DNA of 64,000 nt, from positions 124,001-188,000 of the forward strand of contig NZ_AUKG01000003.1 in NCBI RefSeq assembly GCF_000424625.1, given 5' to 3'. The stretch's first letter is position 1, and each line of letters starts with the position of its first letter. The DNA comes from Conexibacter woesei Iso977N. GTDB taxonomy: Bacteria > Actinomycetota > Thermoleophilia > Solirubrobacterales > Solirubrobacteraceae. Below, piece by piece: positions 8,818 to 14,176 of this stretch. The position numbers were made by a program, and so were the translations under genes. The notes under the pieces were generated by a model. It ran no database searches. It saw only the letters and a list, made by a program, of their open reading frames with translations, and had not been told where the DNA came from.

Positions 8818-8891
<74 letters not shown>

Positions 8892-8892
8892 C

Positions 8893-9402
8893 TCAAGAAA
8901 GCCCCGCATTCGCGGGGCTTTCCTCGTTCTCGCGGACGGCGCTCGACGACCTGCCGGAGCAACGCCGGGGCTGCGTGCCAAGCCGATCGGTGACGACTGC
9001 AGCGATGCGCGCTGCTGCAACGTCAGGTTCTTCGTGTTCCCAAACCCGGACCACCTCCCATCCCGCTTGCGTCAGGATCGCGTCGGTTCGCGCGTCGCGC
9101 GCGCGGACTCCGGCGAGCTTCCGAGTCCACCACCCGGCGTTGGCCTTGGGCACACTGCCGTGCTCGGGGCAGAGGTGCCAGAAGCACCCATCGACGAAGA
9201 CGGCGACACGCGCTCGGCGAAACAGGACGTCGATGCGGTGCCGAGGGAGCTCGGGGACCTTGGCATCGACGCGATACCGCAGCCCAAGCCGGTGCAGCGC
9301 GGAACGGAGACGAAGTTCGGGGCCGGTGTCGCGCCGCCGAACCCGCTGCATCCGGATCCGGACCGCGGCTGACGACGCAGGAGGTGCAGGCTCCTGGGAC
9401 AC
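8893..9402 (-). CDS. vsr: very-short-patch mismatch repair endonuclease (Vsr)
   Basis: The 169-residue protein matches Vsr: RMQRVRRRDTGPELRLRSAL, then LPRHRIDVLFRRARVAVFVDGCFWHLCPEH with the metal-binding Asp58 and the FW pair (Phe74, Trp75) that intercalates beside the mismatch, followed by RARDARTDAILTQAGWEVVRVWEHE. Vsr nicks DNA beside the T of a T:G mismatch created when 5-methylcytosine deaminates, so it normally accompanies a C5 methyltransferase, as here. The GTG start at 9402 has an AGGG site and lies 16 bp after the endonuclease stop. The last dozen residues (ENEESPANAGLS) are encoded by the tRNA-Arg terminator hairpin, so the native C-terminus may have been altered at insertion. Confidence 0.9.
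   Translation of the reverse strand: MSQEPAPPASSAAVRIRMQRVRRRDTGPELRLRSALHRLGLRYRVDAKVPELPRHRIDVLFRRARVAVFVDGCFWHLCPEHGSVPKANAGWWTRKLAGVRARDARTDAILTQAGWEVVRVWEHEEPDVAAARIAAVVTDRLGTQPRRCSGRSSSAVRENEESPANAGLS
8898..8921 (+). terminator. terminator of tRNA-Arg, inside the vsr 3' end
   Basis: AAAGCCCCGC (8898-8907), a four-base loop and GCGGGGCTTT (8912-8921) form a perfect 10-bp hairpin followed by a pyrimidine-rich CCTCGTTCTC. It lies 7 bases after the tRNA and is read through in the opposite direction by the last codons of vsr. Confidence 0.8.
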
Positions 9403-9418: not shown

Positions 9419-10372
9419 CTACTTGGCGTGCTCGTTGACGAAGTCGACCAGCCGCTGCGGATCGTGGCCCCAGAAGATGAAGTACCCCTCGTCCTGGAAG
9501 CGCGTCAGAGTCCCTAGGTCGAAGTTGCCGTCGAGCATGATGGCGATCACAACGCTCGCGGACCCGAACTTGTCACGCCAGCGTGAGGCCTTGCCTTCGA
9601 CCTCGCGCGAGACTCGCTTCCAACCGTTCTTCTGGCCGCTGTTGACCTTGCACTCGATCGTCATCAACAGACCGTCGGGGAGTCGGACGGGGACATCGCA
9701 CTTCATCCCGTGAAGAACGCATTCGCTCGTGAACGAGCCCTTGTCGAGATGATCGATCAACTCGATGTGACCGGATTTCCGCCTCAGCGGGCGCTCGACT
9801 TCCGTGAGCCCTGCGTCCGTCGCAAGCACCCGACGAACCTCAGCCTCTTGATCCTTGCTGGCGCTCCCGCGACGCTCGGTGCGGAAGCGCTCGACTGCCA
9901 GCAGCTTGGCTGTTCCATTGATCGCGGCCTTGCGCTCGTCAGGCAACGGCGAGCGGTCTTGAGAAAGCCACGGGAACAGCAGCGGATCGGCCAGCTCTCT
10001 CACCGTGCTGCACACCGCCGGCGCTGCGGCCTTCACCGCTCTCGCGTTTGCTCTGGCGGCGAACGGCCAGCGTGTGACGGTTCGGAAGTCCTCTTCGGAG
10101 ATCGGCGGTCCGGCGGTGTACCGGAGCGCCCGCACGATCTCGGGATGAGCAGCGACGACCTCAGGCCGCAGATCGGTGAGATCGGCGGTGACGGCAAGCG
10201 CCTGGACCAGCTCTTCGCGTGCGTCTGCGAGCTTCGGCCGGTAGGCCGCCGGAATGGCGTGGCGTACTCGCTCGATGAAGATGGACGTCGCTTTCGCGAT
10301 GTCCATCTTGAGCTCGTCCTCCGTGTACTTGAAGTCGCGAACGAGATCCATGGGCGCCAGTGTGACACCCAT
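9419..10372 (-). CDS. XamI-family type II restriction endonuclease
   Basis: The 317-residue protein resembles the XamI family along its length: a helical N-terminal half (KMDIAKATSIFIERVRHAIPAAYR, PEIVRALRYTAGPPISEE, LADPLLFPWLSQ) and a C-terminal nuclease core. The core has CDVPVRL (Asp226), TIECKVNSGQKNGWKR (Glu240 and Lys242, an ExK pair) and an AIMLDGNFDLGTLTRF strand region, fitting a PD-(D/E)xK active site. As I recall, the characterised family member cuts GTCGAC, but the specificity here is unproven. It follows the methyltransferase stop by 26 bp. The ATG at 10372 has GGAG five bases upstream; an in-frame ATG at 10351 is the alternative. Both ATGs lie in the two arms of a perfect inverted repeat that could block translation. 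Confidence 0.78.
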   Translation of the reverse strand: MGVTLAPMDLVRDFKYTEDELKMDIAKATSIFIERVRHAIPAAYRPKLADAREELVQALAVTADLTDLRPEVVAAHPEIVRALRYTAGPPISEEDFRTVTRWPFAARANARAVKAAAPAVCSTVRELADPLLFPWLSQDRSPLPDERKAAINGTAKLLAVERFRTERRGSASKDQEAEVRRVLATDAGLTEVERPLRRKSGHIELIDHLDKGSFTSECVLHGMKCDVPVRLPDGLLMTIECKVNSGQKNGWKRVSREVEGKASRWRDKFGSASVVIAIMLDGNFDLGTLTRFQDEGYFIFWGHDPQRLVDFVNEHAK

Positions 10373-10398: not shown

Positions 10399-11613
10399 TC
10401 AGACCAGCTGCTCGACGCGCTTCGCCCGGCGGCGCAACGTGCCGTTCACGCGGTGCTCCGCGGTCGTGTAACGGATCCGCCTTCGGAAGTTCGCCGGCCA
10501 AGGAGTCGAGGTCGGGCGCTCTCCTCGTTTGAGCGAACCCTCTGCCAGGCTTGCGCGAGCTTCGCGGCCGAGTGCGTGTGCCAGTTCGAACGGAACGGCG
10601 TTGCCGATCTGCCGGAAGCGGCTCGTCAGCGAACCGCTGAAGGCCCAACCGTCTGGGAAGCCCTGGAGGCGTGCACACTCCTGCCAGGTGAGACGTCTGT
10701 GCGTGCCGTCGTCCATCTTGAGCCAGTCTGGGGTCGACGCGGCGCGGATCGTGCGCGATGGTTGATCCCAGGCGGCGATGAAGCCGTCCTGTCGGTAGCC
10801 CCACTGTCCGCTCGGCCGGTTGTTCATCACCTGCCCTCCGACTCGGATACCGCTCCCCGCCTGGACCTCGGCGAGTTTCTCCTGCATCTGCGAGGAGGCC
10901 CAGACCGCATCCCCTTCGCTTTCTGGCAGACCTGCCAGTGCGTCTTTGATGGGTACCCACGGCATCAGCAGGCTGCCCACGTCGAGCGGGTTCTTCGTGT
11001 GCGTTGCAGCGGGCGGCATCGAGGGCAGTCGATGACGCCGTGTCCCAAGCATCACCAGCCGAACTCGCTTCTGAGGGGCGCCGTAGTCGGCCGCGTTCGC
11101 AAGCGCGAAGCTGCACGCGTAACCGGCACTCTCGAACTCGTCTTGAACCAAACGGAGCACGCCGCCGATCTGTCCGTCGGAGTCACGTGCTGTGACAAGA
11201 CCTTGAACGTTCTCGAATAGCACGAAGGCCGGCTTCAAGGCCCGCGCGGTTCGCACGAAGTCGCGGAAGAGCAGACCTCTGGCGTCTGCGATGCCCTGTT
11301 GCTTGCCAGCGCTGCTGAAGCTCTGGCACGGAGGCCCTCCGGCGAGCAGGGAAGGCGCCTTGTCCGAGCCCCAGAGAGTCTTCAGGTCGCCCTTGGTGAG
11401 CTTCGTCAGGTCTGCTCGAGCGATCGTCGCGCCCTCGAGGTAGTGCCGATCCGACCGCTCAATCGGGACTCGTGCTGCTTGCGTCGCCTTGAGGGTCGCG
11501 ACAGCGTCGACGTCGTTGTCGATCGCAAGTCTCGTTTCGAACCCGGCCCGCTCGAGGCCGGCGTCCAAGCCGCCCGCTCCTGCGAAGAGGCTCACCAAAG
11601 TCAACTGCTCCAT
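10399..11613 (-). CDS. DNA (cytosine-5)-methyltransferase
   Basis: The 404-residue enzyme has the C5-MTase motifs in the usual order: motif I SLFAGAGGLDAGL (AdoMet site, residues 8-20), motif IV AGGPPCQSFS with catalytic Cys96, motif VI FENVQG (Glu134), motif VIII QKRVR (181-185), a target-recognition region around 200-310 and the closing LTWQECARLQGFP and FRQIGNAVP (motifs IX-X). An unusual basic tail of about 40 residues follows motif X. It should protect host DNA from the adjacent XamI-family nuclease; Vsr downstream fits with 5-methylcytosine as the product. The start at 11613 has an AAGGGAAGGG site. A longer frame to 11688 would run through the palindromic leader and is less likely. Confidence 0.93.
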   Translation of the reverse strand: MEQLTLVSLFAGAGGLDAGLERAGFETRLAIDNDVDAVATLKATQAARVPIERSDRHYLEGATIARADLTKLTKGDLKTLWGSDKAPSLLAGGPPCQSFSSAGKQQGIADARGLLFRDFVRTARALKPAFVLFENVQGLVTARDSDGQIGGVLRLVQDEFESAGYACSFALANAADYGAPQKRVRLVMLGTRRHRLPSMPPAATHTKNPLDVGSLLMPWVPIKDALAGLPESEGDAVWASSQMQEKLAEVQAGSGIRVGGQVMNNRPSGQWGYRQDGFIAAWDQPSRTIRAASTPDWLKMDDGTHRRLTWQECARLQGFPDGWAFSGSLTSRFRQIGNAVPFELAHALGREARASLAEGSLKRGERPTSTPWPANFRRRIRYTTAEHRVNGTLRRRAKRVEQLV

Positions 11614-11691: not shown

Positions 11692-11705
11692 CGAACATAT
11701 GTTCG
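11692..11705. promoter_or_regulatory. SOS/LexA-type box upstream of the restriction-modification genes
   Basis: CGAACATATGTTCG is a perfect 14-bp palindrome and fits the Gram-positive LexA box CGAAC-N4-GTTCG. On the minus strand it contains TATGTT, a plausible -10 element, and lies 79 bases before the methyltransferase start. LexA bound here should repress the operon; the divergent gene starts at 11897, about 190 bp away. Confidence 0.7.
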
Positions 11706-11896: not shown

Positions 11897-14176
11897 ATGA
11901 AGCACGGACGCTCGCTCCCCACGCTCCTGGCTGCCCTCGTCCTGATGGCGCTGACCCTCGCGCTCGCCCAGCCGCAGCGTGCCAGCGCTGCTGGGAGCAT
12001 CGGCGTCAGCATGAACAGCGGCGACCCGACCGAGGGTGGGGCGGTGTCGATCACGGTCTCGGGCAGCGCGGACTCCGGGACCGACTGGTGGGCGGTGGGG
12101 ACGCAGGCGGGCTTCTGCGCCGCGACGGTCGACGGCAACGCCGGCGGCTACGACTTCACCTACGCGCACTACGTGTCGGGCGCGTTCAGCGACAGCACGC
12201 AGTTCACCCCGCCAAACGCGGGCACGTGGACGATCTGCGTCTACCTCGCGAACTCGACGACCGCGGCGCCGAGCGCCGTCGGGCAGACGACGTTCACCGT
12301 GCGCAGGGCGACGGCGACCGTGAACGTCGCGATCAGCGCCGACCCGACGGTCGACCAGTGGTCGACGATCACGATGTCCGGCACCAGCGAGGCGACGCGC
12401 AAGCTCCGCGCGTGGATCACGCCGAGTTCATGCGCGGCCACCTACGCCGGCAACACCGACGGCCAGACCCTGACCTACGGCGCGACGACCGTCGGCCCCG
12501 GCGCCTACAGGACGTCCTACAACTTCCAGACCGGCGCCGCCAACAGCTACACGGTCTGCGCCTACGTCTCCGACCGCGTGAACGACCCGCCCAACGGCTC
12601 CGCGGCCCTGGCCTTCACCGTGCGCGGCCCGCACGAGACGATGGCGATCGGCATCGGCGCCGACCCGCACGAGGACGCCTCCCTCCCGGTCACGATCTCC
12701 GGAGCCGCCGAGCTCGACCGCACGCTCTACGCGGCGCAGATCGCCGGCGGCCCCTGCCCCGCGCACTACAGCGTCACGGCGGCGGACTCGTCCCTGGACT
12801 ACAGCGGCCGCTCGATCAAGGCGGGGAACTACTCCGAGTCCTACACCTACACGCCGCCGGCCGCCGGCCACTACCGGATCTGCGCGTGGCTGGGCAAGAG
12901 CACGAGCTCAGCCGAGCTGGCGACCAGCGTGGAGTTCGACGCCCGCCGCAGCGCCACGGCGTTGTCCATCAACATGGACGGCTCGCCGTACCTGCTCGGC
13001 GCCGGCAGGCGCACCGCGACGATCACCGGCTTCACCGAGGCCTCCGACTACGTCTCGATGGAGTCCCTCGCCGGGACGACGTGCCCGCCGCCGGAGTTCG
13101 GGGTCGACGGCTTCGGCGTCGGCGGCCCGTTCTCGCGCACGATCGCCGTCGACCCGGAGCGCTCCCCGAACTACGTCGTCTGCGCCTACCTCTTCCACGA
13201 CAGGGACGTCTACGCCACCGCCCGCGCGCCGATCAGCGAGCTGGCGGTCCCGGTCCCGGCGATCGGCGAGAACACGCCGAAGGGCATGATCGGCGAGCGC
13301 CGCCCGTCGTTCGCGTGGTCGGCCGGCGCCGGGTTCAGCGACGACCTCGTGCTCTCCGACCGCGACGGGGCGACGCTGTTCGTCGTCGGCAGCGACGGCG
13401 CGTGGGTCCCCACGGACGACGGGACGCCGAGCACCGGCGGCCAGCAGCTCAAGACCCCGGCGGCCGCTTCCCGCAAGGGCTACGAGCGCCTGCCCGGCGC
13501 CGCGACCTACAGGACCGCCGCCGGCAGGACCACGGTCAGGGTCACGCAGCCGCTGCCGCCCGGCGGCTACCGCTGGTCGGTGCAGCGCAGGCGCTCCGAC
13601 GGCGAGACGGCCAGGACGGCGCCGATCGCCTTCAAGATCGCCGGCCCGGACGTCAAGAGGCTCGCGGTCCGGGCGAAGTCGTTCCCGGTCGCCAACAGCA
13701 GGCACCCGGGCCACAGCGAGCTGCGGATCACCACCACGCCGTGGGCCTACGTCCGGATCCAGCTCACGCGCGGCGGCCGCAAGCAGGTCCAGAACCTGCG
13801 CTGGGACGGCTCGGCCAGCCACGCGCTGAGCTTCACCTGGACCTGCAGGGCCGGCGGCGGCGCCTACCGCTACGTCGTCACCGCAAGCGACGACGATGAC
13901 CACAGCTTCACGCGCCACGGCACGATCAGGACGATCTCCCGCGCCCGCTGCGCGTCGCTGCGCGCGGCCGAGCGGCGCAAGGTCGACCGCCGCGTCGCGC
14001 AGCGCCGCGAGCGCCAGGCCGCCGCCGAGCGCCGCCGCGAGGCCGCCGCCCGCGCCAGGGCCCAGCGGCTGGTCGACCAGTGCCACTCGATCGGCGGCGT
14101 GGTCCGCAACTGGGAGTGGTCGGATGGCACGACGTGGCTGCTCTGCGTCACCCCGTCGGGCGCGTTCCCCATGTAG
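11897..14176 (+). CDS. secreted protein with tandem Ig-like repeats and basic C-terminal tail
   Basis: The 759-residue protein starts with a signal peptide (about residues 1-32, ending RASAAG). Four consecutive units of about 110 residues follow, each with a beta-sandwich outline and a late Cys in a conserved strand: YTPPAAGHYRICAWLG, FTPPNAGTWTICVYLA, NSYTVCAYVS, NYVVCAYLF. They are paired with an earlier Cys (AGFCAATVDG, SSCAATYAGN, GGPCPAHYS). Residues 440-600 include the GENTPKGMIGERRPSFAWS region of a different beta domain. The end has a highly charged Arg/Ala helix (RRVAQRRERQAAAERRREAA) before WSDGTTWLLCVTP. TACGCT at 11882-11887 precedes the ATG by 9 bases. It is a surface or wall-associated protein of unknown role. 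Confidence 0.8.
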   Translation: MKHGRSLPTLLAALVLMALTLALAQPQRASAAGSIGVSMNSGDPTEGGAVSITVSGSADSGTDWWAVGTQAGFCAATVDGNAGGYDFTYAHYVSGAFSDSTQFTPPNAGTWTICVYLANSTTAAPSAVGQTTFTVRRATATVNVAISADPTVDQWSTITMSGTSEATRKLRAWITPSSCAATYAGNTDGQTLTYGATTVGPGAYRTSYNFQTGAANSYTVCAYVSDRVNDPPNGSAALAFTVRGPHETMAIGIGADPHEDASLPVTISGAAELDRTLYAAQIAGGPCPAHYSVTAADSSLDYSGRSIKAGNYSESYTYTPPAAGHYRICAWLGKSTSSAELATSVEFDARRSATALSINMDGSPYLLGAGRRTATITGFTEASDYVSMESLAGTTCPPPEFGVDGFGVGGPFSRTIAVDPERSPNYVVCAYLFHDRDVYATARAPISELAVPVPAIGENTPKGMIGERRPSFAWSAGAGFSDDLVLSDRDGATLFVVGSDGAWVPTDDGTPSTGGQQLKTPAAASRKGYERLPGAATYRTAAGRTTVRVTQPLPPGGYRWSVQRRRSDGETARTAPIAFKIAGPDVKRLAVRAKSFPVANSRHPGHSELRITTTPWAYVRIQLTRGGRKQVQNLRWDGSASHALSFTWTCRAGGGAYRYVVTASDDDDHSFTRHGTIRTISRARCASLRAAERRKVDRRVAQRRERQAAAERRREAAARARAQRLVDQCHSIGGVVRNWEWSDGTTWLLCVTPSGAFPM

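Follow-up and report, generated by a model that had tools for sequence, protein, structure and literature searches.

A LexA-type box ahead of a methyltransferase-endonuclease-Vsr operon suggests SOS control of a type II restriction-modification system in Conexibacter woesei

A perfect LexA/SOS-type palindrome, CGAACATATGTTCG, lies at 11692..11705 of the window (the whole 64-kb stretch of DNA analysed), and the ATG of a C5-cytosine DNA methyltransferase gene follows 78 bp downstream. This gene is the first of a leftward three-gene operon that also encodes a restriction endonuclease and a Vsr mismatch endonuclease (M-R-Vsr). We regard the palindrome as probably the LexA operator of this horizontally acquired operon, which would be repressed by LexA and induced in the SOS response. 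The case for LexA binding, repression and induction at the operon is built from sequence: the box itself, the presence of the same box at lexA and other SOS genes of the genome, the order and intactness of the operon, and the recurrence of such boxes at actinobacterial restriction-modification (R-M) and C5-methyltransferase genes.

The exact match to CGAAC-N4-GTTCG reported in the initial annotation is present as a perfect palindrome, to which no strand is assigned, and is the only one in the window. On the sense (-) strand of the operon it reads with its flanks as tCGAAC-ATAT-GTTCGt, and it matches the Streptomyces LexA ChIP-seq consensus tCGAAC-N4-GNNCGa (PMC9380542). Its central ATAT follows the RNRY pattern seen in most boxes of SOS genes in this genome. 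The setting is an AT-richer intergenic stretch between the operon and a diverging gene for a secreted protein (11897, + strand). The -10-like TATGTT that had been read toward the methyltransferase is a by-product of the palindrome and, because the site is a perfect palindrome, is equally readable in both directions; no sigma-70-like core promoter overlapping CGAACATATGTTCG was recognised in a search at the site. A search at the operon and at recA for a promoter of the LexA-independent, PafBC-type RecA-NDp class gave none. We also considered a leader peptide running through the box (short frame MIAPTEP...MIEHMF); it is unsupported, and the frame runs into the methyltransferase gene in another reading frame.

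All three operon genes lie on the - strand and are apparently intact. The methyltransferase (10399..11613, 404 aa, ATG at 11613; PF00145, E 3e-60; TIGR00675, 174 bits) has its PCQ, ENV and QxRxR motifs all present, and a ribosome-binding-site-like gggaaggg stands immediately upstream; since the protein begins at motif I, it has no N-terminal DNA-binding domain. The gene for a XamI-family restriction endonuclease follows after 26 bp (9419..10372, 317 aa; PF09572, 70.2 bits against a cut-off of 25), with the PD-(D/E)XK residues D226, E240 and K242 conserved; its partner is the PF00145 C5-methyltransferase, not the N6-adenine type usual among its relatives. After a further 16 bp comes the third gene, for a Vsr DNA mismatch endonuclease (8893..9402, 169 aa; TIGR00632, 111 bits against a cut-off of 97.85; PF03852), with an intact FVDGCFWH motif and a C5-methyltransferase in the same operon. 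The earlier remark that no DNA-repair gene lies beside the box therefore has to be corrected. A second C5-methyltransferase of the genome (G000:C1:1181006-1187287) has no SOS box, and a Vsr gene broken into two fragments lies a few kb from it.

The operon looks as though it was gained horizontally at a tRNA hotspot, because its 3' end directly abuts tRNA-Arg(acg) (8818..8892, + strand) and close synteny with the sister genome G396 ends just past that tRNA gene. Three genomes of the same genus likewise lose similarity to the window directly after tRNA-Arg(acg), which from these alignments looks like an integration hotspot. The G+C content of the operon is 62-68%, as against 70-80% in most of its flanks. 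No direct repeat of the end of tRNA-Arg was found at the opposite side of the operon.

A pattern search of the 5.7-Mb genome returned 18 perfect CGAAC-N4-GTTCG sites. Between 11 and 13 of them stand directly upstream of gene starts, mainly of classical SOS genes, and about five (about a third) lie within genes or are otherwise oddly placed and appear chance-like. Perfect boxes precede lexA (where the box ends 25 bp ahead of the gene), imuB, dnaE2, ruvC(AB), recN, dinB and a RecQ-like helicase gene, while recA has CGAACGTGCGTACG, with one mismatch, 70 bp ahead of its start. The scan of flanking genes that had been proposed thus places the motif at lexA and imuB and, slightly degenerate, at recA; neither lexA nor recA carries a clearly different box. 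At the other SOS genes of the genome the box lies 0-110 bp from the start, a range into which the 78 bp at the methyltransferase falls.

Several further boxes deserve mention in their own right. The identical 14-mer CGAACATATGTTCG occurs at L020:4001-4014 (G000:C1:291829), directly before a DprA/SLOG-family gene that is preceded by a phosphoribosyltransferase-like gene in an island of low coding score; here the genome may carry another mobile module under SOS control. A 120-aa protein lacking a Pfam match (L031:3639-4001) starts directly at a perfect box, CGAACATCTGTTCG, and its gene may be a new SOS gene of the lineage. At L025:3500-4014 a perfect box stands 28 bp before a small gene in an island gene cluster, whose product has an ASCH-like N-terminus as judged by eye and no Pfam match. 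A radical-SAM gene of this genome (L030:2975-5047), which matches an intein weakly, has two perfect boxes in tandem upstream.

The main rival to LexA control is that the palindrome arose by chance in an AT-richer intergenic stretch. The same first-order Markov model that we applied to the window leads one to expect about 12 perfect sites genome-wide from dinucleotide composition (the reversed control pattern has 1 match), and several of the 18 sites are oddly placed, as a chance origin would have it. Because so many perfect matches are expected by chance, the evidence consists in where the boxes lie and in their recurrence; a match by itself does not suffice. Under the model, 0.13 perfect boxes are expected in 64 kb and 0.0006 in any one upstream region of 300 bp, and the latter figure speaks against chance, as do the context and centre of CGAACATATGTTCG, which resemble those of the genome's SOS sites. 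Recurrence was assessed at other XamI-type systems and at other actinobacterial C5-methyltransferases.

Endonuclease relatives in genome contigs were collected with an alignment-based scan, a single-sequence query having given none. In four genomes of the family f24, which is presumably Coriobacteriia-like, a box lies 85-105 bp before the endonuclease gene, in three of them perfect to CGAAC-N4-GTTYG and in the fourth with one mismatch; these boxes are aligned just downstream of a TTGACT/TAGTAT-like promoter, and in two of the genomes lexA bears the same CGAAC-N4-GTTTG form. The XamI-type loci of a Leucobacter (L080, one mismatch) and of an Acidimicrobiia bin (L084) also have a box, and a Micrococcus luteus plasmid (L195) has a perfect one at the methyltransferase start. 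In a Euzebyaceae contig (L055/L092) a perfect box stands directly before a truncated endonuclease gene and a Vsr gene, whose products are 55-58% identical to those of the window operon; lexA of that genome has three boxes. The nearest complete M-R relatives, in Gaiella (L077; M-R, with Vsr nearby on the opposite strand) and Micromonospora (L076; M-R), have methyltransferases 48-49% identical to that of the window and show no box at one mismatch or fewer upstream, a point in favour of chance.

Among 113 other non-redundant actinobacterial C5-methyltransferases, 6 are preceded within 300 bp by a perfect box (L167, L185, L191, L228, L248 and L283), and the 300-bp upstream regions of the remaining 107 have none. 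The 678 kb of C5-methyltransferase loci hold 10 unique perfect boxes, so that 6 of them fall in the upstream regions that make up 5% of the sequence (p = 2.8e-6). The independent positive cases are fewer than this raw count, because L167/L185 and L191/L228 are homologous pairs; with the pairs collapsed, by our own arithmetic, 4 of 8 boxes fall in 5% of the sequence (p about 4e-4). Two of the four other perfect boxes adjoin a Vsr gene and a helix-turn-helix gene (L164). Another of the four lies 143 bp upstream of a serine recombinase gene (L145:3047-3865) that has a C5-methyltransferase and a Vsr gene beside it. The motif count of one genome (G263) is inflated by CGAACCTAGGTTCG, which at G263:C52:37544-40045 has more than 30 copies spaced roughly 72 bp apart and probably belongs to a palindromic-repeat (CRISPR-like) array instead of representing SOS boxes.

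Recurrence before unrelated actinobacterial methyltransferases and XamI systems speaks against a chance palindrome, which we consider unlikely; these comparative sequence data favour regulation over chance. The core proposal of the initial annotation, an SOS box placed ahead of a type II R-M operon, is accordingly supported: the box is shared with lexA and recurs at independent actinobacterial R-M and C5-methyltransferase genes at a rate far above chance expectation. It is very unlikely that the site is a LexA operator serving mainly the divergent secreted-protein gene at 11897, with the R-M operon affected secondarily or not at all. The palindromic site does lie between two divergent genes, but it is 191 bp from the 11897 start, beyond the 0-110 bp range, as against 78 bp from the methyltransferase, and the boxes recur on the R-M side. 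Least likely of all is that the palindrome serves as a hairpin, as a weak terminator or as the operator for a different regulator such as the methyltransferase, and not as a LexA site: the site does give a terminator-like match (a 5-pair stem, then a T-rich stretch) and R-M operons are often self-regulated, but the leader folds no better than shuffled sequences (z 0.01), the methyltransferase has no N-terminal helix-turn-helix, the operon has no controller gene, and the sequence equals the genome's SOS boxes.

Under LexA control of the operon, LexA dimers would bind the box and keep transcription of the methyltransferase, endonuclease and Vsr genes low. DNA damage would lead to RecA filaments and LexA self-cleavage, and M, R and Vsr would be induced jointly with the other SOS genes of the genome. 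Breaks, whether made by the operon's own enzyme on under-methylated host DNA or arising from invading DNA, would thereby raise methylation and restriction together, and Vsr could, while error-prone SOS synthesis is under way, correct the T:G mismatches that occur at methylated sites. The use of such control is less certain than the control itself. Most likely it would give a boost that is gated by damage. As separate purposes, stronger defence after damage, more methylation in response to chromosome breaks made by self-restriction, and a supply of Vsr during mutagenic repair are each possible. Since all three genes share the box, these data do not separate the three uses. More tentatively still, and with considerable doubt, LexA control of type II R-M and C5-methyltransferase-Vsr operons could be a recurrent, repeatedly gained safety circuit of Actinobacteriota, in which self-restriction at under-methylated sites would break the chromosome, elicit the SOS response and so raise methyltransferase and Vsr.

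In the usual description, a type II R-M system is under the control of its own methyltransferase or of a C protein. Direct SOS control, if true, would tie restriction to genome damage; antibiotics or phage attack would then change restriction barriers, and the survival of cells with newly acquired or lapsing R-M systems might be explained. The boxes at unrelated actinobacterial R-M genes make the proposal testable in cultured species, for example in Micrococcus luteus with its plasmid system and perfect box.

SOS control of restriction or Vsr genes is not wholly new. Our search for literature joining LexA box, R-M and SOS covered open-licence papers, in which absence is no proof of novelty. 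In Caulobacter crescentus the Vsr-like gene vsrA is induced in the SOS response, and the authors of that study suspect that a LexA site lies inside the gene (PMC12907096). It parallels the Vsr gene of the window, for which induction is predicted, in that DNA damage raises a member of the Vsr family and the LexA site fits the consensus of the host; unlike the window operon, where one box stands upstream of M, R and Vsr, vsrA is unlinked to a cytosine methyltransferase or restriction enzyme. In a study of gut Firmicutes and Actinobacteria metagenomes (PMC3998124), SOS control is predicted for HsdS, an R-M gene likewise proposed as a LexA target from Gram-positive LexA boxes, and binding is reported as confirmed for other promoters; HsdS is a type I specificity subunit from metagenomes, whereas the window holds a type II M-R-Vsr operon. 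The main text on the Streptomyces venezuelae LexA regulon gives no restriction or methyltransferase targets (PMC9380542). With the XamI family of type II R-M systems the operon shares a PF09572 endonuclease with PD-(D/E)XK residues. Recognition of GTCGAC would be expected of a XamI-type system. Most XamI relatives that we found have an N6-type methyltransferase and no Vsr, whereas the window operon has a C5-methyltransferase and Vsr; among the complete relatives found, only those of Gaiella and Micromonospora share the pairing with a C5-methyltransferase. The dcm-vsr genes of E. coli, which to our knowledge are not described as SOS-controlled, also combine a C5-methyltransferase and Vsr in one operon, from which the window operon differs by its accompanying endonuclease gene.
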